A model generated the notes under the pieces. It saw only the letters and a list, made by a program, of their open reading frames with translations. It ran no database searches and was not told the DNA's origin. Positions 2,618 to 24,142 of a DNA stretch of 28,227 bases are shown here, in pieces. The stretch's first letter is position 1. Each line of letters opens with the position of its first letter. Made by a program: the position numbers and the translations under genes. The stretch is from a virus. The stretch spans positions 1 through 28,227 of the IMG/VR virus record IMGVR_UViG_3300020436_000063; one strand, 5' to 3'.

Positions 2618-2625
2618 TATTTATA
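2618..2625 (-). promoter_or_regulatory. T4-type late promoter TATAAATA (unit of 112-aa protein to gp13)
   Basis: The minus strand reads TATAAATA exactly, 27 bases before the ATG at 2590. It lies in one of the few true intergenic gaps (2591-2640), just after the stop of the 64-residue gene. In T4-like phages this octamer is recognised by the phage sigma-like gp55 with the gp33/gp45 late transcription system. Exact match plus position make this convincing. Confidence 0.8.
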
Positions 2626-2640
2626 TTTCCAGTAACCCGT

Positions 2641-2835: not shown

Positions 2836-5800
2836 GCTAATGCGATTGCTCTAAAGTCCTTAAATCTAGGAGGGAATGCTTCATTGGTTCCACTCATAAC
2901 TATTTTAAATTTGAATCCAGTGAATTCATCTAGATCATCAATACTAAATTGATACTCTTTAAATTCATCAAAGTCACTTGGGGATACAAATGCATCTGGT
3001 CTACCACTATTCTTAGCAGGATCTATAACTTTATTTCCAAAACCATCACCATCAGTATCTTCAAGATTATCAAATCCAGGAAATAGTTCATAAGACAATT
3101 CTGTTTCTGCACCATCCTCTCTAAACAATTGATAAAGAACTCTAAAGTCTGCAGATGGATGTCTATATGCACCAATTAACACTTTCAGTGATGTTGCAGG
3201 ATTTTTAAGATCGACACGATTACTTATATAAACTGATGCATGGGGATCCCCAGATGTTTTGTTTGATCTATCATCTTTAACATAATCAGAAATAGGATTA
3301 TTAAGTCTAGATCTCTCTAAGATAACATTTGCATCTTGTGTATCAATCATAGGTGATAAATTCACATCTGTAGTTGCTAATCTGAAACCTAAAGTAAATG
3401 ATTTATTTTGTGGAAGAGTTGTTAATCGAGTGTTTTCATTAACCTTTGAACAAATTATCCTTGGTGAATCAAGTTTATTTGGTGAAGAAATACTTATATC
3501 TTCAAAACCTTGGTCAATAAATGGTATCTCACTTCCACCAGCACTTGTTCCACTAACAGTTCTAATTTGGCCATCAAGTGTTGTATTAGAACTTGGAATC
3601 AAAGTATTTAAATCAACAATTATATTATCAAATTGATAGTTTTGTGATGCAAATATATTATCACCCCCAAGAGTTTGTTCATTAGTAAAACTGGTTTGAT
3701 TATCACCACTAGGGTTTGGTCTATCTAATTCAAGATGATATTCATCAATTTTTCTATATCCAGATAGAGTTGCATTATTAGGCATATTATGATTAGTATT
3801 GATCTTTCTTAGATCAAAACCATTTAATTCATACTTACGTGCAATATCATCCACATTGTGTGTTCTAATGACTGTGCCATCAATACCTCTTGTACCAATA
3901 CCTAATTGATTGACACCTATACTGCTATAATAAATTATTTCACTGTTTATTTTAACATATCCTTGAGATGTTGAAATACCATTTGCAGTTGCGAAAGGTG
4001 CTGTGCTAGCGACTGATATAATTTGATCATCAACAGCAAGAGCATCAGTAACTGTTACGGGAGTTGTGCTTGGTTCAATATCAGCAAGTGTAACTAAATT
4101 AGTGTCAGCTTGCATTCCATGATTGTAATGATTTACTTTTATTACGTTACCAGTAAATCTTTCGTCAAATGTATTAGATGATGTGATAGTTGTACTAGCA
4201 TAAGATGTAGCAGTTGCTCCTTCATAAACAACGATTGGTTGTCCTGTTGTAAATTCCTCACCCTGAACGTTATTCAGATATAAAGTGCTAGTTCCATTTG
4301 TACCTGTAACTGCGATCTGAACACCAGAACCTTGAGCAACAGTGCTTGTGGTAATTCCTAAAACATCTCCCAGAACGTATCCACTACCACCTGTATTGGA
4401 AGTTATGCTGACAGATGATACTTGCCCTACATTATTAGTAGCAACCGTTGCAGTCGCACCTGTGCCTCTTCCTGTAATGGCATATAGTGGAACATTATTA
4501 TAAGTTTGACTTGCTTTAAATCCAGTTCCACCCGTTGTTAAACCAACAGTATTAACTGGACCACCAATTTGTTCAATAAAACCTTGAACAGCAGTTGCAG
4601 ATGTTGAATCACTTACCTTAACACCTATACCCATTTTAGCAATAGACTGAGCGTGGGTTGTGGTTGTAAGTCCTACTTTTAATTTTCTAGGTAACGTAGT
4701 AATTGCATTTGGAAGTAATCTCTCTATATTTGAAGATCTAGTATCTAATTTTGGATTATAGAAAAATGCTGTTCCTGGTGTTGTTGAGAACTGTGCTTTA
4801 TATAATGTAAATTTCAAATCTTCAAATTGAGATGCAGTCCAAATAGTACCATTTTGCGATTTAAATAAACTACCACCAACATACTGTTTTGTAACAATAA
4901 CTGATTCTGCATCAGGTAAACTTTGAGAGTTTACAGTTTTTTCACCCATTTGGGCAATCCATGCTTCGTAATTATCAGTTGTTGGTGCTAGTAATACAAC
5001 CGCATATTCAGTATCAGGTTCAAGGTAAATAGGTGATGGGAAAGTTACACGAGTTGCAGCTGATGCATCAGAGGAAACATTTATATCATCAGGATTTAAT
5101 GTTACTTGAGAAAATGGATTAACTAAAAGATTAGTAGGGGTTCCCAGTTCCATTGTTCTAAGTTCAACGGTTAATCTTTCAACTGGGTCTTTTGTTCCGA
5201 AGAAAAGATCTACTGATGTTATGGTCATACCTGATTCATCAGTAGTAAATGATTGTGCTAATGGATCTCTTCTCCCTCTTGGTCTTCGACTATTACCCAT
5301 GAAAGCTCTGCGACTTCTCCTTCTTGGAGGTGCAGTTTCAACTATTGTAGTTGATCTAATTGTCTGAACTTGTCCACCCTCAGTATTGTAAGTTGTTTCA
5401 GCATCACTTATTAAAAGACTACCAGGTAAACCTTCAGTGTTAGTTGGACTAGAAGTTAATTTAAAACTACTTGTTCCAGTTCTAAATCTTAAAGGAGGTG
5501 GTGGACTTGCGAGAGGATTTCTAAAGAAGAATGATCCAAAAACTTGACCAACTTCATCGGTAACTAATCTTAGTGTTGTAACTGTTGCTTGTGCACCACT
5601 ACTTTGTCCCAAAATTGTTGCACTATTTTTACTAATAAATCCAAAAAATAATCCCTGTGCTTCATCAGATACAGAATTAGTATCAATATTTAAAACAGTT
5701 GAAGATGCAGAGTATCTTACTCCAAAACTACTTGAAGTGTCATATGGATTACTTGAAAAAGTTTGTGATGGACTGTTTATTGAACCACGTTTATGATCTG

Positions 5801-8800
5801 GTCTTGCTAATCTAAGAACAGCAGTAATATTTCCTAGATTATCTAAAACGTTTATTGTTTCACCCGTTTGGAATATACCATTGACCATTGAAATTTCAAG
5901 TAATTTTGGAATAATATCAATTCCACTAGTACTATCAAAGAAAGAATAATATCTTGTATTTGGTTTTAGACTTGCTGCTTCAAACGATACGTTTCTTGAT
6001 CTTATATGAGTATCTCTTTGTGAACTTGTTACTTGTCTTTCAGTAAATGTTCTATTTCTTGCGCCAGTCCTTCTAATTACACCACCACTAACTTGAATAG
6101 TTCTTACCCATGAATCAGCATCGGGATTTAATAAAATAGTTCCATTAAAATCAATCATATTAAATGGATTTACATTTTCAACTCTTGATGCTAATGGTTG
6201 ATTTAAAGCAACTACTTCATCATAATTCAATGTTATGACATCGCCTGTTTTTCTGCAATTATTATCTAATAGAGGTAAATTTTGAGAAAAATCAGCAGTA
6301 TCTGAATTTATTGATAAATCTAAAGCTATTTGGGGTGTAATTGACCAAAGATCTATTGGAACATTAAGTTCATTTAATTGTGTATCAATAGTAACTCTAC
6401 AATCTGGATCAGTGATATCTAATAAATCATTATTTTTAAAATCATCTACAAAAAATCCACTCTTGAAACGTGATAATCCATCAGCGTCTTGTACTTGTAA
6501 AGTTTTAGTATCAAGTTCAAGTAAACTTAATGATGTTGTTGTTTCTAAATTTTCAATTCTCTCCTCTAATCCACCAATATCCCTCATTGTATATCTAACA
6601 TTATCAACCGATTTTATTTCTGCATCATCTGGATCATAAAGATATGCTGGCAACGTTATTGTTGCAATATCCATATTATTTGCATCATGTATTGGTTCTT
6701 TGGGATTAATATTTGATTTTCCTTTTAATATTGATAAAACACCATTACGATCTAATACAATTTTATCAATTCTTGGTAAATAATAATTGTATCCTAATAT
6801 TGAACTTTCATTTGGAGTTACAATAAATGAAGGATTAATAGAATTTGCAAAAGTTCTATTTTGGAAAGCAAAAGGTGACTCATCTCCATTATAAGTAGAA
6901 ACTCTGGGTCTAAAATCAATTGTATCGGATGCTCTAACGGTTTTATTACCAATAGATGGTATGTCTTTACCATATCTCTCTTCATCATATGATTCTATAG
7001 TATAGAAATCACCATTATCATTTGTAGGAACATCATATTTATCAAACACTATCGTTAATTTTCTTGTTGGAGGTGCAAAATTTTGTTTTCTAACAATTCT
7101 AGAGTAATCATAGAATTGATCTCTTTGACCTTTATCAAGATCAAAAATGCTAGTTATATTCAAACTACTAGTTGCATCAATAGATTGAAGTGTGCTAGAA
7201 ATTTTTGATTCATCAAAGTTTACAACTTCACCAATGATAAATTTATCACTAGTTAAATAGACGATTTCAACTTGAGTAGCAGATATAAGTCCACTTATTT
7301 GAGCAATTGCATCACTTGTTGAACCTGTAATTTTTTCTCCAAGAATTGCATTTGTATTTAAACCTAATCCACTTGGTAAAGTAATTTTATCTAATATTGG
7401 TGCATCACTGTTTATAGATTCAAAAACTCCGATAATTTTTACGACATCGGGATCATTTAGTGATATTTCTTTATCTTCTACTCTTAATCCATATCCAGTA
7501 GCTTTTGTCATACCTGTTAGATCTGTATTAATACCAACTGCAGTCTTATCTACTGTTAATTTTTGACTTCTAATATAATTTTTTTGTTTGCTCTTTAGTG
7601 ATTGTTTTTTGACAGTTGTGCTAATTACAACATTACTTTGACTTGCAGTTAATCCTTGGAAAGTTATTGATTGTCCATTTGATCCAAGAGTAAACTGATC
7701 GTTAGTTAAATCTTCAATAGTTCCATCACTATAATGAATAGCATATTTTTCTTCATCAAAAGCATCATAAAATGCACTAGAAATTCCAGTATCAGATATA
7801 GCCAAACTAAGTGTACCACTACCACTTGTAGATTTACCTGTTATATTTTTACCTACAACTAAATTTGCATTTGATAAATTAATATCAGATACGTTTGGAT
7901 TACCTAATTTTGCAAATAATCCTTTATTATCATTCAAAGCAACGTTTGTAACACCAAATGAGAATGTTGTTGTAGTATTTTGAGCAGTTGGCAGAGCACC
8001 ATTACATATACCAGTTACACTTGCAACAGCAGCCAATGAAATTGAACCATTAGGCAATACTGATGTGACCCTGTTAAATCTTTCTACAGATTCATTAGGT
8101 AATTGATATCTAACGATTGTATCAGTTTTTATGCCAACAAAATTACCGCCAGCACAAGTAGCAATACCTACTGAGTTTATATCAATTTTATCAGTGATAC
8201 TAAAACCAGTTGGAACTCTTTTTTGTAAAACAGTATCAGCAACAAAATCAGCAGCATATCCAGTTAAAGATGAAGCATCTTGATAAACTGATTTAATATC
8301 CTGTATTCCAAATGTTTTAACGGTTGTTATTGATCTTGATATTTCAGAATCTTCGTTAATAATTACCTGCTCACCTTCCATGAAAATGCCAGTAACTTCA
8401 GTTAATTTAATTATTGTACTATTACCACCTGATGCTGTAGCGTAACCAATGGCACCACTACTTACACCTCTTACACGAGATGCATCTGGCAATTGAGTGT
8501 TACTGACTGCAGAATTAATAACAATGCGAGTAAATGTTTGTACATCAAATAGATGCAAGTCCCATTCGGTGCTATCACCAGTATATGATGCACCAGATAC
8601 TGCAAATGAGTAAACTCTTGCCTGTCCTACTAATTCACCAGTTCCAGCAGTGTTTGATCCAGTTCTTTGATTATATAACTCTACAAATTTAGTATCATCA
8701 TTAATATTTGGAGCAGGAACTCCAAAAACATTATTTACCTTTAGTATAGTTCCCATTTCATATGGAACTAAAGCTGATGGTACTTCTTTTTTATCTCTAG

Positions 8801-9935
8801 GTTTTTCAACATCTAAAATTTGTGTTCCACTTAGATCTATATCATAACCTTTTACGTAAGCTGTACCTGCAGATACCTTAACACACATAAGGTCATCTGA
8901 GGGTGTATTACCTTGATCTGTAGTTTCATTAGATTTGAACGCACCTTCATTTGATATACCATCATTTAATGAATTTACAACTTGAACATCAAATGGATTA
9001 AGTGAATAATGCCCTGATTCATCAAAAGTTCTTTTTGCAAAATAATCTTTTATAAGATTATAGTCAGTTTTAGTAATAATTTTTTTGATTTCACCCTCAT
9101 CCACCCTTAAAAGTTCAATGAAGTTTGTATCATTAAAATCTGTCAAACTTTTCTTTGCTAATGAAGTTGTAATCTTTAATCTATCTGCACCTGGAGCTGC
9201 ATAATTAGAAAATCCTCTTGCATTATCATACAAAGAATCATCATCCTTTGCAGTGATTAGTTGTTCATCTATGTTTAAACCAACTCTGTAAGATGGTGTG
9301 TTAGTATATGGATCTAATACAATCTTATCTGTTGATACATCTACAAATGTTCCTCTAATAAAGTATGTTCCTGATGATATACCAACTGCTGATCCAACTG
9401 TTGATGCATCTGTATCAACTAGTGTTAAAATAGTTTCTCCCTCATTTACAGCAGTATTACCATAAACAAAAGATTCTAAAGTTATTAATTGTTCTCCATC
9501 TGTTAAATATGATAATTCATTACTATCTCCAGATTGTAAATATGAAACATAAATTGTTAAATCATTTATTTCTGTGCTTGTACCTGCTAACTCATAACTG
9601 TCAATCTTGACTGTGATACCAGATGATTGTCCTTTTAAAGTTAAACCTTTTAATTGATTTAGATATAATGTTACTGGAATTCCTAAATGCTCATCTTTAA
9701 TTTTTACTGAATAATATTGTGAATCATAATTTATATTACCAGGTATGACCATAGACCCATCTTTAAAGATGTGACTACCAAAAGATTCAATTTGATTTTG
9801 TAAAGAAGATTGTAAAGTTGTTAATTCTCTTGCTTGTACAGGAAAACCTGGTTTAAACAGGACTCTGTAAAACTTATCTTCCTTATCAAAATCATCATAA
9901 TAAGGACTTATATTTAAATTCGTTTTTTGTGGCAT
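2832..9935 (-). CDS. Very large virion structural protein with N-terminal DUF4815 region (2367 aa)
   Basis: Likely a baseplate or tail-fibre component. Residues 1-70 carry PYYDDF (11-16) and FKPGFPVQARELTTLQ (27-42), which I recognise as the start of DUF4815, a region found in large phage tail proteins. The remainder is beta-rich and low in Cys. Notable segments are a Pro run (near 1478), an Arg-rich stretch with 10 Arg in 19 residues (about 1534-1553), directly followed by DPLAQSFT and SVDLFFGTKD. There are also G-x-GY modules (about 1800-1870), an RG-x-x-GT-x5-H module (near 2020), and a DTDGDGFGN loop (about 2292-2300) resembling calcium-binding loops. It begins 3 bases after the gp8 stop and occupies the T4 gene 9/10 position, but I see no convincing similarity to gp9 or gp10. 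Structural role is likely; exact position in the virion is unknown. Confidence 0.82.
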   Translation of the reverse strand: MPQKTNLNISPYYDDFDKEDKFYRVLFKPGFPVQARELTTLQSSLQNQIESFGSHIFKDGSMVIPGNINYDSQYYSVKIKDEHLGIPVTLYLNQLKGLTLKGQSSGITVKIDSYELAGTSTEINDLTIYVSYLQSGDSNELSYLTDGEQLITLESFVYGNTAVNEGETILTLVDTDASTVGSAVGISSGTYFIRGTFVDVSTDKIVLDPYTNTPSYRVGLNIDEQLITAKDDDSLYDNARGFSNYAAPGADRLKITTSLAKKSLTDFNDTNFIELLRVDEGEIKKIITKTDYNLIKDYFAKRTFDESGHYSLNPFDVQVVNSLNDGISNEGAFKSNETTDQGNTPSDDLMCVKVSAGTAYVKGYDIDLSGTQILDVEKPRDKKEVPSALVPYEMGTILKVNNVFGVPAPNINDDTKFVELYNQRTGSNTAGTGELVGQARVYSFAVSGASYTGDSTEWDLHLFDVQTFTRIVINSAVSNTQLPDASRVRGVSSGAIGYATASGGNSTIIKLTEVTGIFMEGEQVIINEDSEISRSITTVKTFGIQDIKSVYQDASSLTGYAADFVADTVLQKRVPTGFSITDKIDINSVGIATCAGGNFVGIKTDTIVRYQLPNESVERFNRVTSVLPNGSISLAAVASVTGICNGALPTAQNTTTTFSFGVTNVALNDNKGLFAKLGNPNVSDINLSNANLVVGKNITGKSTSGSGTLSLAISDTGISSAFYDAFDEEKYAIHYSDGTIEDLTNDQFTLGSNGQSITFQGLTASQSNVVISTTVKKQSLKSKQKNYIRSQKLTVDKTAVGINTDLTGMTKATGYGLRVEDKEISLNDPDVVKIIGVFESINSDAPILDKITLPSGLGLNTNAILGEKITGSTSDAIAQISGLISATQVEIVYLTSDKFIIGEVVNFDESKISSTLQSIDATSSLNITSIFDLDKGQRDQFYDYSRIVRKQNFAPPTRKLTIVFDKYDVPTNDNGDFYTIESYDEERYGKDIPSIGNKTVRASDTIDFRPRVSTYNGDESPFAFQNRTFANSINPSFIVTPNESSILGYNYYLPRIDKIVLDRNGVLSILKGKSNINPKEPIHDANNMDIATITLPAYLYDPDDAEIKSVDNVRYTMRDIGGLEERIENLETTTSLSLLELDTKTLQVQDADGLSRFKSGFFVDDFKNNDLLDITDPDCRVTIDTQLNELNVPIDLWSITPQIALDLSINSDTADFSQNLPLLDNNCRKTGDVITLNYDEVVALNQPLASRVENVNPFNMIDFNGTILLNPDADSWVRTIQVSGGVIRRTGARNRTFTERQVTSSQRDTHIRSRNVSFEAASLKPNTRYYSFFDSTSGIDIIPKLLEISMVNGIFQTGETINVLDNLGNITAVLRLARPDHKRGSINSPSQTFSSNPYDTSSSFGVRYSASSTVLNIDTNSVSDEAQGLFFGFISKNSATILGQSSGAQATVTTLRLVTDEVGQVFGSFFFRNPLASPPPPLRFRTGTSSFKLTSSPTNTEGLPGSLLISDAETTYNTEGGQVQTIRSTTIVETAPPRRRSRRAFMGNSRRPRGRRDPLAQSFTTDESGMTITSVDLFFGTKDPVERLTVELRTMELGTPTNLLVNPFSQVTLNPDDINVSSDASAATRVTFPSPIYLEPDTEYAVVLLAPTTDNYEAWIAQMGEKTVNSQSLPDAESVIVTKQYVGGSLFKSQNGTIWTASQFEDLKFTLYKAQFSTTPGTAFFYNPKLDTRSSNIERLLPNAITTLPRKLKVGLTTTTHAQSIAKMGIGVKVSDSTSATAVQGFIEQIGGPVNTVGLTTGGTGFKASQTYNNVPLYAITGRGTGATATVATNNVGQVSSVSITSNTGGSGYVLGDVLGITTSTVAQGSGVQIAVTGTNGTSTLYLNNVQGEEFTTGQPIVVYEGATATSYASTTITSSNTFDERFTGNVIKVNHYNHGMQADTNLVTLADIEPSTTPVTVTDALAVDDQIISVASTAPFATANGISTSQGYVKINSEIIYYSSIGVNQLGIGTRGIDGTVIRTHNVDDIARKYELNGFDLRKINTNHNMPNNATLSGYRKIDEYHLELDRPNPSGDNQTSFTNEQTLGGDNIFASQNYQFDNIIVDLNTLIPSSNTTLDGQIRTVSGTSAGGSEIPFIDQGFEDISISSPNKLDSPRIICSKVNENTRLTTLPQNKSFTLGFRLATTDVNLSPMIDTQDANVILERSRLNNPISDYVKDDRSNKTSGDPHASVYISNRVDLKNPATSLKVLIGAYRHPSADFRVLYQLFREDGAETELSYELFPGFDNLEDTDGDGFGNKVIDPAKNSGRPDAFVSPSDFDEFKEYQFSIDDLDEFTGFKFKIVMSGTNEAFPPRFKDFRAIALA

Positions 9936-11527: not shown

Positions 11528-14500
11528 CTACCCAAGATCCTTTCTTAATGAACCTGTGTCCCTAAGACCGAAATCTCTTCTCTGGATAGATGGGTAAGTT
11601 GTTAATCCAGAGTCAATTGTTAAACCAGTGACTCCAATAGATATTGGATTTATGCCTCTAGTAAATCCAGAAAGTCTTCCCCAAGAGAATTCTCCTGTAC
11701 CAAAACCTACTGACGCACCATTAATACCTGTTGTATTTACACCAGTATCTATATTACAAGTAATAATACCAACTGCAGCATTATAATCATTTATAATGTA
11801 AATATTATCAAGACAGGTTGTACCTGTTGCAACAACAGTGCTATTGCTACCGTCAACAGAGGTAACACCATGACCTACTTTTGTTCCAAATATGAATATT
11901 GGATAACCAACTTTTAGTTGAGTTGCAGTTGAATTAGCATTATTTACAAAATCAGGTTCAAGTGTAAATTTGAGTGCTAAAGGATGACTTCCAGTACCTT
12001 CAGTCACTGAAATTCCACTAATAATGCCATCGTAACCCTCAACAGTTGTTATCACATCCACATCTTCTTTTATTGCTCTAGGAAGTTGAGCAAGCACTTG
12101 AGGAACTGCAGCAATGGTATATCCAAAACCAGGATTTACTATTGTAGTGTTAGTTATGACACCGTTTGTTATTGTAGCAGTCGCAGTAGCAGTGGATCCA
12201 ATTCCTACACCAATAGATTGAGGAGCAGATATTGAAATTGAAGTTGTTGATCCAACATATCCACTTCCACCATTTGTTATGGTAATTGCTGAAATTGTTC
12301 CACCTATTGAAACAGTTGCGGTGAATCCAGCAGATACAGGTTCTCCAGCACCCACAATTAATCCACCAACACTACCTACACTTAAAGCAGAATTGTCTTC
12401 TTCATAGTTAAAGAACCTTGCATTATCAACAAATAACTCATTATCAGTAGAGGATAGATCACCAATAATTTTTGAAGTTGGATAAATTTGAGATTCGAGA
12501 GAGTCTCTTGTCTTGAAAACAATTTCACCATTTACTTTTTTATCAACTTTTTGTTTGATCCAACTTAAAGGTTTAAAGTTTCTTTCATCGACTCCTAATT
12601 GTGTGTATAAATCTGTTTCAACTTCATCTGAGGATTTAATTGCATAAATTGTTCTTTGTTTTTGGGTTGTTGTAATTCCAGAAGTATTTTTAAATACTTG
12701 AACAACATCACCTGTTTTGATTGTAGGTGAAACTGAGGAACCAGCCGAAACTTGAACTGCGTCAACTCCAGTTGTTCCTTTATAAAAGAATATGTCAATT
12801 ATATCATCTGCATCAGGTGCAACTGCAAATTCAAAAGAAGTACCACCATCGAATGTATATGATTCACCAGGATCTTGAATTACACCATTTACAAATATCA
12901 ATAATAATGCATCAAGATTTATGAGTGAAGAATCTGGATTATCTTCATCAACTTCAAAACTTAATAAACTTGCATTATAAATTAATGGGAATCTTTTTCT
13001 CTCACCATTTTGCAATTCTTTAATAGAATCTATAAAGTCAAAGTCACCAAAATTCCAAGATGAATACTGATCTCTGAATACTTTTGTTACTGTTAATTCA
13101 AAATCGCTTATTAATTGTGAGGTATTTAAAAATCTATCTGTGACTAAACCAACTGGTTTGAATACATCACCAACTTTGAAATTGTATCCATTATTATCTA
13201 ATGAAAAACTCTTAACTTCAAAAGATGTTGATCCTAAACCAACCGTTGTATCTGCCGCTCCAACTCCTATAGTTAATGTGGCACCTGTGCCTGTATCCGT
13301 AGTTGATCCAATTCCTCTTCTAGATACACCAATAATTGGAAGATTTTCATATGATGGTGAAGAAACTTGAATTTGTGGTTGAGTATAACCAGTCCCTGCA
13401 TTATTAATTGTGAATTTTAACGCTCCGCCTGTTCCAGTGTTGGTAATACCTACATTAACTGTAAATGTATTAGTTGTAACTGCAGTAATTGCTAACGTTG
13501 CATTGTGTGCTGGATCTCCACCTGCTGAACTTGGGGTAGGACCAGATCGTGGATACGCATGATCAGTCGAGAAATTATCTTGTGCACATCTAAACACAAA
13601 TGAATTTGTAGCAAGACCGACTGTATTACTTGTTGTTAATCCATGAGATGCTTTAGTAATAACTAAATTACCTGTTGCTGGATCATATGTGGCACCTGTG
13701 GGTGTAAGAGGAGAACCTCCAGTAACTGATACAGCATTAGTTGATGCACTTATGAAAACGTGAGTATTAGAGACAACCTCTGCTGAAATATCCGCACTTG
13801 ATCCATTTCCAGATAAATCCGTAACAGCAACAGAAACTGGATTTCTATACCCAGATCCAAAACTTAAGTCTGACAAGAACTCAACTGCATTACCACCACT
13901 TGAATAAGCATGAGTAACAGTGCTAGTTCCTACGTTTGTTGTAAATGTTGTTGCGGATAATATTCCTGTTACACTAAATGAAGTAGTTGTTGATATACTT
14001 AATGTTGGACTGAATGTTAAACCATTTAATCTAACAAACTCATTTATATTTCTAAATCCATGATTACCAGATGTGGTAATTTGAAGTTCACCTGTGGTAT
14101 TATTAAATGATGCATCACTAACAGTAAATGAATTTCCTGTTGTTGCAAGACCAACAATTCCTACAATCGCACCACTACCGTTCGTTGTTGCTTTTACTTT
14201 AGCTGGTGCTAAATTAGCAACTCCTAATCCCCCAGTGGAACCTAAAGAAACTATCACACCTCCTCTTGGAAGTTGATTTTGATTTACATCAGTCTCACTA
14301 ATAATTTTTGTACCATTAGCTGATGTAATTCCTGTAAATGTTACTTCACTAACACCTGCAGTTTCTGAGAACTCATAATTATTACCAAGATTATTAAATG
14401 TAGTTGGTGTTTGGAATATACCGTTTAATAATAAAATACTACTTCCTGTTTGTATTCCTGTAGTATTTGCTCCACCCACTCTCAAATCAAAAGTTTGTCC

Positions 14501-17500
14501 AATACCAGTAAAATCTCCTGATATATCATCAAATATAGTATTAGTTGCGTAACTTTGTCTTAAATATACTCTACCGTTAAATTTAGATCTAACAGGATCT
14601 AAGTTTGATGATGTTTTTTGTGTAGAATTAGTTCCTCTTGGAGGATCTGTAAAATGAACAGTGCTATCTACAATATTATATCCACCAGAAAATAATCTTG
14701 CAGTATTGCCTGAACTATGATTTGTTGAAGCAGATCCTATTGCTCCTCTCTCAACTTCAAATAAATTAACACTACCAGTGTTAGTTATCGGACCTACTGA
14801 TGTAGTTCCCAAACCAACATTAGTGACTTTCATAAATTCATCATTAACCTTAACTATATCATTAGAATTAATAGATGATATTCCAGTAACACTAAAAGTA
14901 GTTGCACTACTAGAAATATTATATTCTAGATTAGTTGTGATTGGTGTAAATGCAATTGGAGATTGAATAACACCATCAATAGACATTAATGCTTTTTCAA
15001 CCTTTTTAAACATTTCAAATTCGTGTGCATTACCTGTACCAGTTCCAGTAAATGTAACTGCTATTCCTGCTAATGCGTCAGGACGAGATTTTGAAATTTT
15101 GAAAGTATCTTTATTAATTCTTATTGCATATACTTCTGATCCTAATGTGCCACCTGCAGTTGCTATTCCTGATAACGAAATTCCAGTAAAAGTTGAACCA
15201 GGTGTATAAACTAGTCGTTCACCAGTTTCAAAGAAATGATCAATGATTGTAAATACACCAGTTGCAGCATTCAATGTGCTTACATCTGATGGATTAAATT
15301 GTTTTTGGAATATAGGTTTAGAATCACTTTGTAATTTAAAACTTGTTTTATTTGATCTTGTTCCATTAACTGCATCATACTGTGCAAATGATAATGATTC
15401 AGTAACTGTCCCGTATTGTAAATCAGGTGGAATATTAAGTAAGTCAGTTTCTGAATAAAACGCCTCTGTAAATGATTGAACCTCAACACTATTAGTTCCA
15501 CCACTGTATAGTGGATCTGGGTGGAAGTTAAGACATAGATCATTACCAACTATAGTTGATGAGAATGTCCCTATACCTGATGTGCTTCCAATGGAGATGA
15601 ATGGATATTGTGTTGTATGAGTATCTGTTGAATCATGAGCAACTAATACTTGATGTAGTGAACTTGTTGATCCACTTGATACTCGAACAACTCCTTTAAG
15701 AGAACTAATTTCATTTTCAGTGAATGTTGCAATTGTGGATGCAGATGAAACATTATGGAATTTAGATTCAAATATCGTTGTTCTTTCAGTGCCATCTAAT
15801 TGTCCAGGTAATTTAAATCTATATGTTCCTATACCAGCAGCAGTGGTTCCAATACCAATAATTCTTGATCTAACTAAAACATCATTTGATTGATCATTTT
15901 CAAAGTTTAATGATAATATTCCAGATTCTATTTCAGATTTAAATGTTCCAATAAAATTAGATGTAGGACCATCTTCAGTATCTGCATAAAATTCAGATAT
16001 GAAAGAATTTGTTCCATCATGAGTTAGATATAAATCTACAAAGTTTGTTTGTTCTGTGGTTGTATTATTGACTTCAATTGAAGCAAAGAAAGCATCAATA
16101 TCATTTACGTTTGTTGAAATAATATTTGATGTGCTTGCTACAGATACTGAAGTATTAATACCAGATAAATTTACAAACCCTATTGATTGAGTTCCAATTC
16201 CTGTTAAATTAGTATTATAAAATGTTTTTAATATTTTTAAATCATAATCATTATTATCAGGATCATCAGGTGTAAATTTCAAACTTACATTTCCTGATAT
16301 GTCAATTTCACCCTTAAGTTCTCCTAACTCAGAGGGTGTAGTGTGAATTTTTGCTTTTTCAGCAGTGAATACATCAGTATCATCTTTGTACAAAATAATA
16401 TCTGATAATTGAGTGTTATTATTATTTGGATTTCTTATTTGAACTAAAAACGTCGCATATCTAGTATTAATAGATAAATCTAAAAATTCGGTTAAAGTGC
16501 TTGCTGTGTTTGAAAATAAACCACTTATATCATCTATTTCAAGAACTCTATTAGTTCTACACTCAATATATGGTGATAACTTTGTGTTTTTTAACTTTAG
16601 GAATTTAGATTTACCGTCTACAGTGTCAATATCTAAAGCAAAGTCAAAATTATTAATTGTATCTACTCTTTTTTGATCAATAAAATCTAATGCAAGAGTA
16701 TCTGTAAAACTAGATGTTGTAACACCTGCGTTTGTGACAGATGTTATGCCAACATCAGCAAAATTTTTCAATCCTGTTGTATGAAGTAATCTGTTAACTG
16801 GATTTATTAAATCTTCATATGTAATTCCACTTTTTACACTATACGATAAATTTTGATAATAGTCATTATCTGGAGTAACTTGATAATCTTGACTTAATTT
16901 ACCGATATCATCATTCCAACCTTGATCCTGTCTTAACGAATAACTAATTTCAAAAACACCAGTATTTTTAGATATGGAATTTATTTTTGCAATATTACCA
17001 CTGTTAAAACCTTTTATCAATTGTCCAGCAGTTAAATTAAATGCACCAGGTGATAACTCTTCAATTTTTATTAAATTATTTGATGATTCTGATATCACTA
17101 AATCAACAGCAACGTAAGATGTGCCAACGAATGATAGCAGTTTCTCACCGACACTAAATTTTGATGTTACTTGTGTTACTTTAAAAGTTGGATAATCATT
17201 TTTGCTTATGACTATACCAAATGAATTTTGATTTGTTTTTGCTATCCCAGCATTAGTAGTAATTGAAGATAAATCAAATTCAATTGTAGCTGGATTGGTA
17301 TTGTTTACAGCACTTATTTTAAAGAATTTAAATCCATTATCTCTTGAATTAAATCCTGTGCCTGTTGAACCATCTTTTTGCAATCCCTCAACAAATATTT
17401 CTTCATCAACAGTGAATGGAGCAGTTGTAAATCCTAAAACTGGAGTTACTAATGTGCAAGTTACAATACCAACTGCTTGATTATACTCTAATTTACTTAC

Positions 17501-20500
17501 AGTTGATCCATTAGTATTGTTAAGGGCAAATACTTCATGAGTGATTGACTGTAAACCTTTAGGTGCTACGATAACTTTTACATCTGCTAACGAACTTCCA
17601 TTTAAACTAGCACCAATTATCGCACCAGAAGTATCCTCTTGTCCAGTTAGTGGATTAACAATCACTAAATCTGGGATAGTTGTATAATTTCTACCACCAT
17701 CTACTACTTCAACAGAAGTAATAGTATTTGAATCAATTATTGAAATAACTGGTGAAACAAATGCCTCTGGTTTAAGAGTTGGATCTGAAGAATATTCAAA
17801 ACCAGGATTAAGTATTCTTACATCATCAAGTCTATTAATTGTTGTTGAATCTGGAAGTAAAGTAGCATTAGTTCCTTGAGTTGATGCAATACTTACAAAT
17901 GATGGTAAATTATCATATCCTACACCACCAAAATTAAGATTAACACTTTCAACAGGACCTCTTGCTCTAGGTGATTTGGTAGAATATTTTAAAACACTAG
18001 TCTCAGTGGACGCATATGATAATTTTTCTGGAACTTCAGAAATAGAAATATTAAACGTTGTATAAGAAGCACCGACAACTGGAGGAACGTTAAAAATACT
18101 ATATTGACCACTGTATTTACTATCAAGATAATGAATTTTATTATAATTGAAAACATCAGTATCCGAAGTGCTTATAAAACCAGATTTTTTAATATTATAA
18201 TAAAGATTTGATGGATTATCTTCATAAAAATTAAGTGTTACGGTTGCAGTTGAAGTTACACCAACAGTTCCAACTCCTGTAACTTGAAAATTAGTAGTGT
18301 TGCCAACGGATACGAATTTATTTTTAAAATCTTTATCATAGTAAATTTCTAATTCATATCCTAACAATGAAGTGTGTCCTACTCCAAAAACTAAATTATT
18401 ATTTTTGTAAACAGGAATAGGTGGATTTACTAATGAAAATTCATGATTATTTCCAATTGAACTTAACTCAATAATATTTGCAGGATTATTTGTTACATCA
18501 GAATATGTTTCACCTAATTTAAAATTATTATCATCAACTTTGTAAACGTAATATGACTCTTGATTTGCAAGACCTTCTGATATTGAAGTAGAAATATACT
18601 GTACTTTACTTCCAGTGGTAAAATTATGTGAATTAAAATTAAAATTATTTGTTGAAGTAGTTACACCACTAGATGGTATTATAATTGGATTTATTAGTAA
18701 TTTATGTGTATTTGAATCAAATTTTAAATTAATAGAGGTTGATACACCAATACCTACGGATTGACTTGGTTTTAAGTCAAGATTAATAACATCACCATTC
18801 ACTAAATTATGTGCGGTTGATAATGAAACGACAGAATCAATTCTTTGTAGTTTACCTGTTACTTGAGTAGGATTAGATTCAAGTAAATATTCAAAACTAC
18901 TTGATCCTACTCTGTTATGTCCAACAAATGCTAAACCTGGTGTAGATGTTGTTAACCCAACTTGAGTAACTATACCGACATAATCTTTTGATCTTTTAAT
19001 AATAAAGACATCTTGAGTATTTCCTGAGCCAGGTATAGTGAATGTTGTTACACCATCATCTTTTGACACGGTTAATCCATAACCTGCTGCAGGTTTTGTA
19101 AGTGTTACTCTTTGATTTGTTTCAAATGGGTGATTAGGTAAGAAAACACTATGGGTTGGTATATTAACAACTTTAGATATATCACCTAATGTGGAGAGAG
19201 TTGTCGTACCTAGTCCAACAACAGTTCCAACACCTATACTCTCATGAGGATTAAAATATACTAAATCCTTTAATTCAGAATCAAAATATGTTGTATCTAA
19301 AGAAATATCAAATAAACTAGGAGTTAAACTTAATTTAGTTGATACTGTATGAACCCCAGAAGATATACCTCTTTTTACTCTTATAATATTATTACTATTA
19401 AATGTGTTTAGAACTAATAATTTTTCTGTTCCTATTCCAATGCTACTACCTGCACCAATTCCTGTAGGTATATTTGTTACGTAAATATCAGTTACAATGC
19501 CAGTTGTTGATGAATTTGGAATTTCTTTGTAAACTACAGTAGATGCTGTTTGTATACCAATTACATGAGAACCCGTTAAACCTTTAATTCCAGTTGTGCT
19601 CAATCCAGAAATAACTACATTATCATTATCATTCAATGAAGGTGCTGTTGAAATAAATGCTGATACAGTGTTTGAATCTTTCCAAACAAAAACTGTATCT
19701 TCAAACGTATCAATTGTAGTGTTTATTGATGTTATATCTTTTCCAGTTATACTGTTTACAGATACACTTAATCCACCACCATTAGTTCCAGTGTTATCAA
19801 ATATAGCACTATCTCCAACTTCGTAATTATCACCACTATTGATAATATCAATTGAATTTATGGAACCTGAAGTTGTGCTTTCTACAACTGATGACTGTAA
19901 TGTAATTTCATTTGATTCAATAATGAAATCATTATCAGCAAACTGATCAGAAACTTTATAAGGATAACTATTACGGACTAAATCAGAATCACTAAAATTA
20001 AATGTGTTTTGGTTTATATTGAAGTTTTCATCGGTGGGATTTGATCTATAACTATTTCCTATAAAATAAGGAAAAGATGGTAAAAGAGAGTTAGTTGTTA
20101 TACCAACAAAATATGCATACGTTCCATTAGGATACTCAGGTGTTCTACCATATCTTCCATTATGTACATCTAAATCACCAGAGTTATTAAACTTATAATC
20201 TTCTACGAAAAATCCATTACTAAATCCAGATGGTCTATCAATAATACTTGAAGTATCAAGAACATATCCACTATTTAATATTCTAACTGGTGAGTTTTGA
20301 TCAGTTGAATCACTGTAACCATAAGGACCATAAATTGGATTACCATCATATGCCCAACCTATTATTGGTGAATGACCATTTCCAGAATCACCGAATGAAT
20401 CATTACCTATTTGAGTTGAATAACCAACTAAAGAATAAGCTAATTTATTATTTGTTTCTACAAGTGCTTCATTACCGTATCTATTAAATGTGTTTACAGT

Positions 20501-23500
20501 TAATCCCCTTGTAACTGCCTCTAATTTTGCACCACTGCCTGGTGGGGTTATTTTTATATCAATTTTATCTTGTTGATATTGTAAACCTCCTTCAAGAATA
20601 ATAACATCAACTATCTTACCTCCTTCTACTACTGCTCTCAACTTAGCACCAAGTCCTGTACCAATCCCAACTACCTCTAAATTAGGTGCAGATGTGTATT
20701 CTTGACCCTTTGTTTGTATTTCTACAAAAGTGACTTTTCCGTCTGTTACAATCGGTTTTAGTTGTGCTTCTTTTCCAGTTTTTACGTTAACTGTAATTGA
20801 TTTTTCAAGGTTTAAAATATCAGATCCGTAACCAGTTCCTTTTTCATACAGAAGTATATCTGTAATTGAACCTCTTACAACAGGAGTTGCAGTTATCACT
20901 CCTACAGAGGTATTTGATAGTTCATATTTAAGATTTAATTTAATGTCTGGATATTTAAATACTTGGAATCCTGTTCCTTGATCTGAAAATTTAATATAAT
21001 CATTTCTCTCAAACTCTGATGTGATTGTTCCCCCTATTCCAGCATTTGAAATCCTAAATGAATCATCATCTAACTTAATTATTTGATAAAAATTAGAAGT
21101 GGATGTTATACCAGTATATGTTGATAATCCTGTGATTGAAACAGGGGTTGTAGACCCTAAACCTACAGCAGTGGAGTAAACTACTTTTGCTCCGTTAGCA
21201 AATCCATGATTACTAAATTTAATTACATCTGTAATCGTGTTTATATCTGATGGATTAACAAATATTTGCCTATTTTCATAATTTGAACCACTATCAATAA
21301 CTCTTATATTTTTTAAATTATTTTGACCATCTAAAAGTTTAAATTTGTGAATACCTACCTTATTAGTTGTAGTAAAACCTACTGTGTTTATACCTGAATT
21401 GTAATCAGATAATGTTTGATATAATTGAACTGTTGTTGGGTCTAATACTGATGGATAATATGTTGCAGCATTAATTAAAGTAGTTGTACCTACACCAACC
21501 ACCGAGGTTCCTGCATCATTACCAACAGTTCCAATACCAAGTGGTGGGTTATTATTTCTATCGTAAACAATTGGTTGACCACTTACAATATTATGATCAG
21601 TGCTAAAAGTTAATGTTTCATTTACGTTGTCGATGCCACCAGAATCACTGACTAGTCTTGCATCGAATGATATTTCTCTTCTCCTTTCTTGAAGAACAGG
21701 TTCTAATACAGTTCCAGAACCATTACCACCTTCAATCGTTGCGGAAATAACTCTTTTTATATCAAAATCTTGAGGATCAACTTGAATGTCAGTAATTTTT
21801 CCAGTTACAACTGGTCTGATTAATGCAGTGGTATTATTTGCACCAGATCCAGATAATTGTATGTTTGGTGGATTTATAACGTCATAATCTTTACCACCAT
21901 TTAATAAACTAATGCTTTCAAGAGGACCAAAAAATATTTTATCATTTGACTTGTAATTTCTTATCTCAACACCATTAATTAACATACCTGTTGTTCCAGG
22001 TGTAGTTAATATATTTGTAGAATTTGTTAAACTTGGATTTAATGGAAATTTCTTAAATAATTTTTGTGGTGCAATTTCTTGTTCTTTTATACCAACCAAT
22101 GAAAATGTATGAGTGCCTGATCCTGCAACTAGAGGTTCAAACTCTTCAAAATCACCTATGGGAATAAATGATCTAGATCTGTATAATCTTATTTGGTTAG
22201 TGCTTGTTAATACTTCAACGAAATAGGCAGATTGAGTTAATCCTGGTATAATTGATCCTTGTGCAGTGTAAAATACTTCATCACCAGTAATAAATGGAAC
22301 TGGATTTGGAAATGATAGAATACTATACTTTAAAGTGTTTGGATTATATCCTGATTGTGGAAGTTGATTTCCACCTATGGCATTCGGTAATATTGATTTA
22401 GGTAAAGATGATGTTACTTGGTAAGATGGTAATGAATTAGAAGCAACATAAAAATTATTATTTGACTCATTATACACGTTGGTGACATCAGAAGTTAAAA
22501 TATTATTACCAAACTCCATGTCAGTATTTGTACTAGAGGCACGGTTTATAACTCTTCTCATATCATATTCCCTATTTGGATCAGGGAATAGTGTAATTCC
22601 TGGTTGATTGGTTAAATTATTAATTGTAATAGTTCCTGTTGGTACATCAATATTACCCACAGTTCCAGTTGCTATCTTTGTTTCCTCATTTCTAAATAAA
22701 ATTTCTATGTTATCTCCAAGTTTCAAACTAGACTTATCAATATCTCTAGTGAATAACACTAAGTTTGAACCAGACACACTTTCAACTTTAAATCTAGAGG
22801 AGGTATTATAAATCCAAGAATTAGCAAAAATTTGTTTTCTTGTTTTATTATCCGTTGGATTTAATATTTTTTCACCAACATTACTGACGCTTATTTTTTC
22901 TCCTTCTACCAATAATCTTATATCAGATGTTGGAACAAATTTAGAAAGAACTCCTGTTAGTCTTAATTCAACTTTTTTACTTAAATCACCACCTTCATAT
23001 CCAAAATAAAATTCATCAGATCTAATATCATCAGTGCTTGATATATTATCAATAATATTTTCACAACCAAAGAATTGATTGACAGATTTATCACTGTAGT
23101 AAATATTTGTACTTATTCCAGATATCAAAGTACCAGTTTGTCCAAAACCAACTGTAGAATCTACAGTAATTACTGATGAACCTATAGAAACATCACCAAT
23201 AACTTTAGTTTTACCAGTAATATTAAATGTTCCTTCTATTAAATCTATTTCATTAAAACCTACAAACAATCCAATTTTATAATATACCTTTCCTTTTCTG
23301 GTTAAAGGTTCAACTTCTGATATTGCTGCTCTCGTTTCGCTATCAGTTGATTTAATTATTGTTTGTCCGACTAAATTTATAGGATTTCCTGAAATTGCCT
23401 CTGCTAAAACTATTTCTCTTCTGATATACTCTGCTGATGAAGGTTTTATTAAATATTTCTCTAAATCTATTATTGATGGTGTTTCATTATACAAAATATT

Positions 23501-24142
23501 AAATAATATTCTAAAAGACTCCTCAGTTCCTTTTGACTGGTATAATGATTTTGAATTTTTTATAAAATTACTAACATCAAGATTATTAACAAAGGTAGAG
23601 TTTTCTAAACCAGGTGTGAGTAGTTTTTTTGTCTTTTTATAAAATTCTTTTAAAAATAATGCACTAAGATTAACAACAGTTGCATCAGCATCATGATTTG
23701 TAGATGAAGAATCAGAGAATACTAGTTCTGTAGGATCATTATCTGCATGATATGTCGTTATACCACTAAAACCACGAATACAACCAGTAAAAGTATTTGT
23801 AGTTATACCAGTGTATGTGATTACTTCGTCTTCAATTTTAAAAAGACCATACTCATTAGGAAATCCTTTTGTGGATGTGACAGTTACTGTTGTATCACTT
23901 GTACTTATTCCACTACTTAGTTTAGTTTCACCAACTACTACTTCTGGTGTTAAATTATCTAATTTAATATACTGATCTAGATTATCAGTTAGGTCAATCG
24001 TACCTCCCTGATATTCTTGCGAGATATAATACTGCTTAAGAAAATCAACTGCTTTCGGACTTTCAGATACTAAAAACTCTGGTAGTTGGTTTTGTATTAT
24101 CTGATGGACTTTGACTCTTTTATCAATTCCAGTGGTTATCAT
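11528..24142 (-). CDS. 7: Giant baseplate wedge protein in gp7 position, with YHYH domain (4204 aa)
   Basis: It lies exactly between gp6 and gp8, the place of T4 gene 7 (1032 residues), and probably serves as the gp7-like wedge protein; I infer this mainly from synteny. N-terminal residues 1-65 (KRVKVHQIIQNQLPEFLVSE, FLKQYYISQEYQGG) and the helical part to about 260 look like a docking region. At about 1240-1362 is a YHYH-type domain, with IIGWAYDGNPIYGPYGYSD, HNGRYG, TPEYPNGTYAYFV and FPYFIG. Elsewhere the chain is a mosaic of modules: G-x-GY units, H-x-F-x-x-G-x-x-V-x-Y units, RG/H units, an HAYPR segment near 3527, and three NG-x-x-Q-x-P units (near 3054, 3239 and 3751). The C-terminus (FKTRDSLESQIYPTSKIIGD, then a GFTRGINP segment) looks conserved. 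AGAGGA at 24147-24152 supports the start. No frameshift is visible. Confidence 0.83.
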   Translation of the reverse strand: MITTGIDKRVKVHQIIQNQLPEFLVSESPKAVDFLKQYYISQEYQGGTIDLTDNLDQYIKLDNLTPEVVVGETKLSSGISTSDTTVTVTSTKGFPNEYGLFKIEDEVITYTGITTNTFTGCIRGFSGITTYHADNDPTELVFSDSSSTNHDADATVVNLSALFLKEFYKKTKKLLTPGLENSTFVNNLDVSNFIKNSKSLYQSKGTEESFRILFNILYNETPSIIDLEKYLIKPSSAEYIRREIVLAEAISGNPINLVGQTIIKSTDSETRAAISEVEPLTRKGKVYYKIGLFVGFNEIDLIEGTFNITGKTKVIGDVSIGSSVITVDSTVGFGQTGTLISGISTNIYYSDKSVNQFFGCENIIDNISSTDDIRSDEFYFGYEGGDLSKKVELRLTGVLSKFVPTSDIRLLVEGEKISVSNVGEKILNPTDNKTRKQIFANSWIYNTSSRFKVESVSGSNLVLFTRDIDKSSLKLGDNIEILFRNEETKIATGTVGNIDVPTGTITINNLTNQPGITLFPDPNREYDMRRVINRASSTNTDMEFGNNILTSDVTNVYNESNNNFYVASNSLPSYQVTSSLPKSILPNAIGGNQLPQSGYNPNTLKYSILSFPNPVPFITGDEVFYTAQGSIIPGLTQSAYFVEVLTSTNQIRLYRSRSFIPIGDFEEFEPLVAGSGTHTFSLVGIKEQEIAPQKLFKKFPLNPSLTNSTNILTTPGTTGMLINGVEIRNYKSNDKIFFGPLESISLLNGGKDYDVINPPNIQLSGSGANNTTALIRPVVTGKITDIQVDPQDFDIKRVISATIEGGNGSGTVLEPVLQERRREISFDARLVSDSGGIDNVNETLTFSTDHNIVSGQPIVYDRNNNPPLGIGTVGNDAGTSVVGVGTTTLINAATYYPSVLDPTTVQLYQTLSDYNSGINTVGFTTTNKVGIHKFKLLDGQNNLKNIRVIDSGSNYENRQIFVNPSDINTITDVIKFSNHGFANGAKVVYSTAVGLGSTTPVSITGLSTYTGITSTSNFYQIIKLDDDSFRISNAGIGGTITSEFERNDYIKFSDQGTGFQVFKYPDIKLNLKYELSNTSVGVITATPVVRGSITDILLYEKGTGYGSDILNLEKSITVNVKTGKEAQLKPIVTDGKVTFVEIQTKGQEYTSAPNLEVVGIGTGLGAKLRAVVEGGKIVDVIILEGGLQYQQDKIDIKITPPGSGAKLEAVTRGLTVNTFNRYGNEALVETNNKLAYSLVGYSTQIGNDSFGDSGNGHSPIIGWAYDGNPIYGPYGYSDSTDQNSPVRILNSGYVLDTSSIIDRPSGFSNGFFVEDYKFNNSGDLDVHNGRYGRTPEYPNGTYAYFVGITTNSLLPSFPYFIGNSYRSNPTDENFNINQNTFNFSDSDLVRNSYPYKVSDQFADNDFIIESNEITLQSSVVESTTSGSINSIDIINSGDNYEVGDSAIFDNTGTNGGGLSVSVNSITGKDITSINTTIDTFEDTVFVWKDSNTVSAFISTAPSLNDNDNVVISGLSTTGIKGLTGSHVIGIQTASTVVYKEIPNSSTTGIVTDIYVTNIPTGIGAGSSIGIGTEKLLVLNTFNSNNIIRVKRGISSGVHTVSTKLSLTPSLFDISLDTTYFDSELKDLVYFNPHESIGVGTVVGLGTTTLSTLGDISKVVNIPTHSVFLPNHPFETNQRVTLTKPAAGYGLTVSKDDGVTTFTIPGSGNTQDVFIIKRSKDYVGIVTQVGLTTSTPGLAFVGHNRVGSSSFEYLLESNPTQVTGKLQRIDSVVSLSTAHNLVNGDVINLDLKPSQSVGIGVSTSINLKFDSNTHKLLINPIIIPSSGVTTSTNNFNFNSHNFTTGSKVQYISTSISEGLANQESYYVYKVDDNNFKLGETYSDVTNNPANIIELSSIGNNHEFSLVNPPIPVYKNNNLVFGVGHTSLLGYELEIYYDKDFKNKFVSVGNTTNFQVTGVGTVGVTSTATVTLNFYEDNPSNLYYNIKKSGFISTSDTDVFNYNKIHYLDSKYSGQYSIFNVPPVVGASYTTFNISISEVPEKLSYASTETSVLKYSTKSPRARGPVESVNLNFGGVGYDNLPSFVSIASTQGTNATLLPDSTTINRLDDVRILNPGFEYSSDPTLKPEAFVSPVISIIDSNTITSVEVVDGGRNYTTIPDLVIVNPLTGQEDTSGAIIGASLNGSSLADVKVIVAPKGLQSITHEVFALNNTNGSTVSKLEYNQAVGIVTCTLVTPVLGFTTAPFTVDEEIFVEGLQKDGSTGTGFNSRDNGFKFFKISAVNNTNPATIEFDLSSITTNAGIAKTNQNSFGIVISKNDYPTFKVTQVTSKFSVGEKLLSFVGTSYVAVDLVISESSNNLIKIEELSPGAFNLTAGQLIKGFNSGNIAKINSISKNTGVFEISYSLRQDQGWNDDIGKLSQDYQVTPDNDYYQNLSYSVKSGITYEDLINPVNRLLHTTGLKNFADVGITSVTNAGVTTSSFTDTLALDFIDQKRVDTINNFDFALDIDTVDGKSKFLKLKNTKLSPYIECRTNRVLEIDDISGLFSNTASTLTEFLDLSINTRYATFLVQIRNPNNNNTQLSDIILYKDDTDVFTAEKAKIHTTPSELGELKGEIDISGNVSLKFTPDDPDNNDYDLKILKTFYNTNLTGIGTQSIGFVNLSGINTSVSVASTSNIISTNVNDIDAFFASIEVNNTTTEQTNFVDLYLTHDGTNSFISEFYADTEDGPTSNFIGTFKSEIESGILSLNFENDQSNDVLVRSRIIGIGTTAAGIGTYRFKLPGQLDGTERTTIFESKFHNVSSASTIATFTENEISSLKGVVRVSSGSTSSLHQVLVAHDSTDTHTTQYPFISIGSTSGIGTFSSTIVGNDLCLNFHPDPLYSGGTNSVEVQSFTEAFYSETDLLNIPPDLQYGTVTESLSFAQYDAVNGTRSNKTSFKLQSDSKPIFQKQFNPSDVSTLNAATGVFTIIDHFFETGERLVYTPGSTFTGISLSGIATAGGTLGSEVYAIRINKDTFKISKSRPDALAGIAVTFTGTGTGNAHEFEMFKKVEKALMSIDGVIQSPIAFTPITTNLEYNISSSATTFSVTGISSINSNDIVKVNDEFMKVTNVGLGTTSVGPITNTGSVNLFEVERGAIGSASTNHSSGNTARLFSGGYNIVDSTVHFTDPPRGTNSTQKTSSNLDPVRSKFNGRVYLRQSYATNTIFDDISGDFTGIGQTFDLRVGGANTTGIQTGSSILLLNGIFQTPTTFNNLGNNYEFSETAGVSEVTFTGITSANGTKIISETDVNQNQLPRGGVIVSLGSTGGLGVANLAPAKVKATTNGSGAIVGIVGLATTGNSFTVSDASFNNTTGELQITTSGNHGFRNINEFVRLNGLTFSPTLSISTTTSFSVTGILSATTFTTNVGTSTVTHAYSSGGNAVEFLSDLSFGSGYRNPVSVAVTDLSGNGSSADISAEVVSNTHVFISASTNAVSVTGGSPLTPTGATYDPATGNLVITKASHGLTTSNTVGLATNSFVFRCAQDNFSTDHAYPRSGPTPSSAGGDPAHNATLAITAVTTNTFTVNVGITNTGTGGALKFTINNAGTGYTQPQIQVSSPSYENLPIIGVSRRGIGSTTDTGTGATLTIGVGAADTTVGLGSTSFEVKSFSLDNNGYNFKVGDVFKPVGLVTDRFLNTSQLISDFELTVTKVFRDQYSSWNFGDFDFIDSIKELQNGERKRFPLIYNASLLSFEVDEDNPDSSLINLDALLLIFVNGVIQDPGESYTFDGGTSFEFAVAPDADDIIDIFFYKGTTGVDAVQVSAGSSVSPTIKTGDVVQVFKNTSGITTTQKQRTIYAIKSSDEVETDLYTQLGVDERNFKPLSWIKQKVDKKVNGEIVFKTRDSLESQIYPTSKIIGDLSSTDNELFVDNARFFNYEEDNSALSVGSVGGLIVGAGEPVSAGFTATVSIGGTISAITITNGGSGYVGSTTSISISAPQSIGVGIGSTATATATITNGVITNTTIVNPGFGYTIAAVPQVLAQLPRAIKEDVDVITTVEGYDGIISGISVTEGTGSHPLALKFTLEPDFVNNANSTATQLKVGYPIFIFGTKVGHGVTSVDGSNSTVVATGTTCLDNIYIINDYNAAVGIITCNIDTGVNTTGINGASVGFGTGEFSWGRLSGFTRGINPISIGVTGLTIDSGLTTYPSIQRRDFGLRDTGSLRKDLG
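20057..20425 (-). other. YHYH-type domain region inside the giant wedge protein
   Basis: Codons for residues about 1240-1362. The diagnostic elements in order are VGYSTQIGNDSFGDSGNGHS, GWAYDGNPIYGPYGY, an aromatic-rich stretch with FVEDYKF, DVHNGRYGRTPEYPNGTY, and FPYFIGNSYRS. This order matches the YHYH protein domain, which is found in bacterial extracellular proteins and in marine phage tail proteins. Its biochemical role is not established to my knowledge. Domain limits are estimated by eye. Confidence 0.75.
20511..20841 (-). repeat. Three tandem GxGY-type protein modules within the giant wedge gene
   Basis: Three consecutive copies of a roughly 35-40 residue unit: GTGYGSDILN, GQEYTSAPNLEVVGIGTGLG and GGLQYQQDKIDIKITPPGSG. 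Each is followed by A-K-L or A-Q-L, a short variable strand, and a V-x-x-G-K-I/V turn. The copies are divergent at the protein level, and no close DNA repeat is evident. Further single or paired copies lie elsewhere in this gene and in both neighbouring large genes. Confidence 0.6.

Follow-up and report, generated by a model that had tools for sequence, protein, structure and literature searches.

The baseplate of phage T4 contains six copies of gp7 (PMC3004832), a wedge protein of 1032 residues (5hx2/5iv5) encoded between gp6 and gp8. In pelagi- and cyanomyophages T4 gp7 is said to be absent and apparently substituted by VrlC (PMC7029224), and gp10, gp11 and gp12 have been reported absent from cyanomyoviruses (PMC2984593). 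Proteins of the kind considered here are already known, among them those gathered in PHROG 2885 ('baseplate wedge subunit') and the gp7 of P-SSM2 (PSSM2_111, 'baseplate wedge initiator', T4-GC 107). A further counterpart, likened by function and not by sequence, is the gp7-like part of AlgoCIS Alg12, a fibre-binding component at the wedge periphery that evolution has re-engineered but that is fused to a gp6-like part (PMC8894135).

The stretch of DNA analysed here (the window, 28,227 bases) is a complete IMG/VR virus record, a metagenomic fragment of 28 kb, and encodes a protein of 4204 residues termed here giant gp7 (Table 1). The reading that we consider likely combines orthology to T4 gp7, a split core, arms that would take a peripheral role and a tail that lengthens and shortens module by module. 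The split core, the switching of tail modules and the identity of a gene mutated during coevolution appear to be undescribed in the open-licence literature searched.

Table 1. Features of the giant gp7 gene and its neighbours; positions are those of the window and residues those of giant gp7.
Feature	Residues	Position	Strand	Evidence or remark
Giant gp7 gene, 4204 aa	1-4204	11528..24142	(-)	PHROG 2885 over residues 2-4189, E=0
gp7 N-core: two helical stretches flanking beta module, then LVGQTI strand region	1-310	23213..24142	(-)	Profile search of PDB; hhalign
Beta module ('FP..G..I.DE.I.Y...RGFSG'), inside N-core	66-131	23750..23947	(-)	Profile and self-comparison
Internal insert, all-beta where modelled	311-2367	17042..23212	(-)	No T4 counterpart; AF2; collinear in relatives
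YHYH domain	1253-1351	20090..20386	(-)	PF14240 E=1.4e-28
gp7 C-core (YYQNLSYS.K ... H.G)	2368-2486	16685..17041	(-)	Profile A2; T4 genome; hhalign
C-terminal tail (~1700 aa)	2487-4204	11528..16684	(-)	In relatives, tails of 7 to ~3134 aa
Three consecutive related units of ~129 residues	~2539-2877	15512..16528	(-)	Self-comparison
Copy-number-variable 'YPR' module, one copy	3457-3581	13400..13774	(-)	0 to 8-9 copies in relatives
VrlC/DUF4815 baseplate protein, 2367 aa, not a gp7		2832..9935	(-)	PF16075; solved relative 9euf E=7.8e-46
gp8, baseplate wedge, 520 aa		9939..11501	(-)	Pfam Phage-Gp8
gp6, baseplate wedge, 645 aa		24144..26081	(-)	Pfam Gp6-like_1st; 5hx2 gp6 E=6.6e-36
gp25, baseplate wedge, 133 aa		26082..26483	(-)	Pfam GPW_gp25 E=6.5e-12

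Gene context and length

The giant gp7 gene is a single uninterrupted ORF of 4204 codons with an ATG start, which begins 1 base past the end of gp6 and stops 26 bases before gp8, so that it lies directly between these two genes, in the same order as in T4. This agrees with the first-pass annotation, which had described an uninterrupted 12.6-kb gene between gp6 and gp8 about four times the length of T4 gp7 (4204/1032 aa, a ratio of 4.07). The gene contains no tandem repeats at the DNA level. PHROG 2885 covers 4177 of 4179 positions, and the protein shares with P-SSM2 gp7 the position between gp6 and gp8, the architecture and this full-length profile match. Upstream of the baseplate genes, a 147-aa ORF (27635-28078, minus strand) matches Pfam ATE_C (arginyl-tRNA-protein transferase C-terminus) at E=1.7e-5, barely above the cut-off.

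A comparison of lengths across marine T4-like phages, proposed as a check in the first-pass annotation, gives orthologues from 1016 to 6737 aa with one architecture throughout (HTVC008M, 1016; S-CREM2, 1937; S-H34, 1942; S-PM2, 3048; S-CAM4, 3494; ACG-2014e, 3495; ACG-2014h, 3533; S-SRM01, 3895; DSL-LC03, 4107; the window, 4204; ACG-2014f, 4225; Sf-CH5, 4878; S-SCSM2R, 5172; P-SSM2, 5195; syn9, 6076; and S-WAM1, 6737 aa).

The two core segments

An N-core profile, built from the N-terminal regions of ten marine proteins (residues 1-310 in giant gp7), was compared with 177,635 distinct PDB sequences and retrieved, at E<0.1, only T4 gp7 (5hx2, E=1.2e-5) and a T4-type gp7 (9f4a, E=1.6e-4). In the six-frame translation of the T4 genome it has one match at E<=0.01, which falls within gp7 (E=4.6e-8), and profile-profile comparison with 16 T4-type gp7s using hhalign gives a probability of 95% (P=3.5e-8; reversed control, P=0.19). 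The relation to T4 gp7 that had been anticipated for the N-terminus is thereby found.

The second segment, the C-core (DNDYYQNLSYSVKS...LLHTTG), has the consensus YYQ..SY.IK...W....HP.G, and each of 13 complete marine genomes has one strong match to it, in every case within the ORF that carries the N-core. Against the T4 genome its profile has one match at E<=0.01, again within gp7 (E=0.0046), and hhalign places it at T4 gp7 residues ~866-905 (P=6.7e-5, probability 64%; reversed control, P=0.61). The C-core assignment is the weaker of the two, its match to T4 being weak taken alone; the N-core and C-core matches to T4 gp7 are collinear. The sole PDB match of the C-core profile at E<=1, an mRNA maturase (E=0.011), was read as chance.

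Both cores occur once in each of the 13 complete marine genomes, in the ORF after gp6 and between gp6 and gp8. No second gp7 core was detected in these relatives or elsewhere within the 28-kb window, and the separate gp7 gene that would have spoken against the first reading of the locus was not found in any of the 13 relatives. We regard homology of the ORF to T4 gp7 as almost certain, and these profile matches make it very probable that its core consists of two separate pieces, residues 1-310 and residues 2368-2486. Between the matched core parts lie ~70 residues in T4 gp7 and ~2170 in giant gp7. Because the marine protein begins at the core, the first ~640 residues of T4 gp7, which form its N-terminal peripheral part, have no counterpart in it, so that giant gp7 qualifies as a gp7 through its core and does not match the T4-type protein over its full length. 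What the two proteins share is the gene order, the core helices, a KG(T/I)..S motif and the C-core helix with HP.G.

The same plan is recognized in orthologues of very different size. HTVC008M gp055 (1016 aa) resembles giant gp7 in its N-core (1-316), C-core (710-831) and gene position, but has an insert of just ~390 aa, a tail of 185 aa and no YHYH domain; an AF2 model of this protein was too low in confidence (pLDDT 44.6, pTM 0.23) to show how the two cores pack. The 3048-aa protein of S-PM2 (S-PM2d081/S-PM2p084) is an orthologue by position and both cores, but its insert measures ~1480 aa and its C-terminal end is unrelated. In the gp7 of Synechococcus phage S-SRM01 (3895 aa), N-core, insert, C-core and tail are all collinear with those of the window.

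Internal insert and recurring modules

With the cores placed by profile, insert sizes fall into classes by clade: ~390 aa in pelagiphages, ~1450-1520 aa, ~2030-2110 aa in the window's clade and ~2600-2690 aa. Within the clade the insert remains collinear at identities between 91% and ~43%, and AF2 predicts residues 311-1510 as an all-beta structure (pLDDT 83.0, pTM 0.70). This collinearity, together with the confident all-beta model, argues for a structure that has long been in place, most of the insert being ancient, and against a recent accumulation of modules. Searches of the insert sequence against the PDB, by single sequence and by profile, returned no match, and a Foldseek comparison of the 311-1510 model with the PDB returned nothing at E<=0.001, so that the role of the insert is not readable from structure. 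Its top viral Foldseek matches are cyanophage gp7s and YHYH proteins.

One YHYH domain had been noted in the first-pass annotation, and PF14240 finds it with a score of 100.6 bits against a curated cut-off of 25. The match comprises the second half of the profile only (positions 89-185 of 193) and hence less than a complete domain. A YHYH domain is present within the gp7 of every cyanophage tested and absent from pelagiphage HTVC008M and from T4. In place of the terminal YHYH-like motif, six gp7s have YAYF or YCYF, YAYF being the form in giant gp7; the yardstick here is the motif after which the family is named, with its histidines.

Recurring modules, also claimed at first reading, are borne out by self-comparison of giant gp7. 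Residues 963-1034 pair with 2950-3019 (E~1e-6), residues 1083-1188 are related to 2043-2198 and 3940-4013, and a run of three related units lies just behind the C-core (Table 1). The beta module of the N-core has relatives at residues 308-368 and in the neighbouring VrlC/DUF4815 protein, which holds one copy at its residues ~1961-2027 (E=4.5e-6). Since modules recur in giant gp7 and one type is common to the VrlC neighbour, exchange within the baseplate operon is likely, as judged from sequence comparison. In syn9 and S-WAM1, ~510 extra residues at the beta module mark a third growth site, inside the N-core.

The C-terminal tail

The tail is the most length-variable part of the protein across marine relatives (Table 1). 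The C-terminal end is clade-specific in sequence, S-PM2, ACG-2014e and syn9 each ending differently, and it has no PDB match in single-sequence or profile searches. Both ends of giant gp7 had been thought to look conserved; this is true of the N-terminus, whereas residues ~3690-4204 are unrelated to gp7 or any solved structure (0 PDB matches at E<=1 for their profile), so that the segment 3700-4204 proposed for comparison is not gp7-like, and the second gp7-like stretch is internal.

The YPR module, of ~105 residues, was surveyed in the full tails of 16 metagenomic relatives, S-SRM01 and P-SSM2. It is lacking in 5 of the 16 relatives and in S-SRM01, present as a single copy in the window and in 9 of the 16, and found twice in one relative, three to four times in another and about 8-9 times in P-SSM2. 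Among relatives of the same group, the sequences flanking the site are 70-94% identical. ORF lengths of the window's near relatives rise in corresponding steps, from 4092-4117 aa with no module to 4205-4236 aa with one and 4307 aa with two. On a tree of the flanking sequences, a contig with two copies (L312) and one with none (L315) are sisters, and parsimony over 19 sequences requires at least 5 switches between presence and absence. Comparison of these sequences shows a tail that gains and loses whole modules of ~105 residues, and places the recent gains and losses, as far as the alignments tell, at one tail site. Recombination between relatives could be an alternative source of the switching. 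A hypervariable receptor-binding block at residues 3300-3600 was also considered and dropped, the full-tail alignment showing module presence or absence.

The proposal that a wedge protein has grown by module gain accordingly stands in part. The protein is a gp7 homologue, and gain and loss are seen between close relatives, but growth between conserved ends is not supported: the core is split by an insert of ~2060 residues, a tail of ~1700 residues follows and the N-terminal ~640 residues of T4 gp7 are missing.

Virion detection and coevolution

Mass spectrometry of purified virions identified S-CREM2 gp122 by 91 unique peptides, at a coverage of 27.2% (PMC10665884). This protein of 1937 aa carries an N-core (5-310) and a C-core (1835-1930) and has no tail. 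In a 500-day chemostat coevolution with Synechococcus, S-PM2d081, described as hypothetical and exceptionally large (3048 aa), showed non-synonymous changes on days 39 and 500 (PMC9910659); by position and both cores, this locus is the gp7 orthologue, and a 'hypothetical' protein mutated in coevolution is now identified as gp7. Both the detection in S-CREM2 virions and the S-PM2 mutations fit a baseplate role, and they lend indirect support, from relatives, to the decoration or host-contact function that the first-pass annotation had suggested and that giant gp7 may have. As a sign of host contact the mutations are only suggestive, because many ORFs were mutated: the early mutations struck 18 ORFs, and many of them, according to the authors, equal alleles already in a deposited stock (PMC9910659). 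When the two deposited S-PM2 genomes were compared to place the coevolution mutation, their gp7 was identical.

Proposed arrangement and alternative explanations

In the arrangement that we propose, the core of giant gp7 would pack against the gp6 dimer in the way known from T4. With the core halves ~2170 residues apart, the chain should leave the core, return and leave again: it would exit the wedge core into a large, beta-rich arm bearing the YHYH domain, come back to complete the core and, past the C-core, exit once more as a second, C-terminal arm. At the baseplate rim the two arms may connect wedges to one another, anchor fibres and the VrlC/DUF4815 protein, and perhaps make contact with the host. 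Since the N-terminal gp7 arm of T4 is absent, and gp10, gp11 and gp12 are reported absent, the arms most likely do the peripheral job. A baseplate with six giant gp7 molecules, the number known from T4, would be heavier by an estimated ~2 MDa, given ~3200 additional residues in each.

That the ORF might be an assembly or frame artefact comes to mind because the window is one metagenomic record only, but 16 independent contigs carry comparable ORFs (3967-4507 aa) and isolates carry ORFs of 3895-5195 aa, which already refutes this explanation. We consider it very improbable that the VrlC/DUF4815 protein replaces an absent gp7 and that the 4204-aa ORF encodes a fibre or other virion protein. The published statement on VrlC (PMC7029224), the annotation of syn9 gp101 as 'putative fiber' and the naming in ACG-2014h, where the label VrlC is given to the ORF after gp6 and the label gp7 to the gene after gp8, would agree with such a replacement, but in the 13 complete marine genomes both gp7 cores are found solely in the ORF after gp6. 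The VrlC protein of the window has just the mobile beta module (hmm 72-132) and none of the gp7 helices, the KGT helix or the C-core, and the solved structure related to it belongs to a DUF4815 protein and not to gp7. Conversely, giant gp7 has no DUF4815 match, only the neighbour matching. With the gp7 cores located in the ORF before gp8 and VrlC a separate DUF4815 protein, the statement in PMC7029224 is contradicted, and placement of the cores corrects the claim of a missing gp7 in cyano- and pelagimyophages.

Accepting the ORF as gp7, the function of its extra mass may be viewed in several ways. YHYH proteins are predicted to be Zn-binding hydrolases with a histidine triad (PMC7824862), and the presence of the domain in the gp7 of all tested cyanophages could suggest that the arm is a tail-associated metal-dependent hydrolase opening the cell wall. 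We find this improbable: the half-profile match and the YAYF or YCYF motif make it likely that gp7 is an exception to the predicted Zn-dependent hydrolase activity. An explanation with only slightly less than an even chance is that the additional residues mainly provide a structural scaffold, strengthening or enlarging the baseplate and linking wedges and fibres without direct host contact. The collinearity of an insert conserved across the clade argues for it, as does the finding that gp7-like parts of contractile injection systems bind fibres and are a 'hotspot' for re-engineering (PMC8894135), but the gain and loss of tail modules between near relatives would suit an exposed surface better than a packed scaffold, and the coevolution mutations in S-PM2 gp7 point the same way. 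For the two-armed gp7 proposed above, a peripheral scaffold role of the arms is the moderately favoured reading, and direct host contact by them, plausible but unproven, we hold to be rather doubtful. Still more speculative, and on balance unlikely, is a general scheme for marine T4-like phages in which gp7 would serve as an arm of adjustable length and the copy number of YPR-type modules would tune reach or host contact at the rim, replacing separate fibre genes. The ~105-residue module nevertheless offers a small, testable variable element in one of the ocean's most abundant phage groups.

Gene names and related loci

Two defined core segments supply one rule that unites proteins long filed in databases as 'gp7', 'VrlC' (the label 'VrlC protein' in ACG-2014h), 'putative fiber' (syn9), 'head closure Hc2' (HTVC008M) and 'large exoprotein' (S-SCSM2R). 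Two of these labels are misannotations in deposited genomes: the gp7 of pelagiphage HTVC008M (NC_020484.1, 33435-36485) is entered as 'head closure Hc2', and in ACG-2014h (KF156338.1) gp7 is named VrlC, the gene after gp8 being named gp7.

Three further loci depart from the common plan. The 3151-aa ORF of contig L237 (from 4961, plus strand) has its C-core at 2719-2837 versus ~1771-1890 in its relatives L236 and L240, which are of similar length, and may be a rearranged gp7 or an assembly chimera. A pelagiphage gp7 in L194 (4751-7786, plus strand) is broken by a stop or frameshift into pieces of 223 and 788 aa, each with its own core part, probably as a sequencing error or pseudogene. Finally, one T4-type contig (IMG/VR record 2974739009) contains two gp7 loci, L102 and L103, 13.5 kb apart, possibly reflecting a duplicated or misassembled baseplate region.
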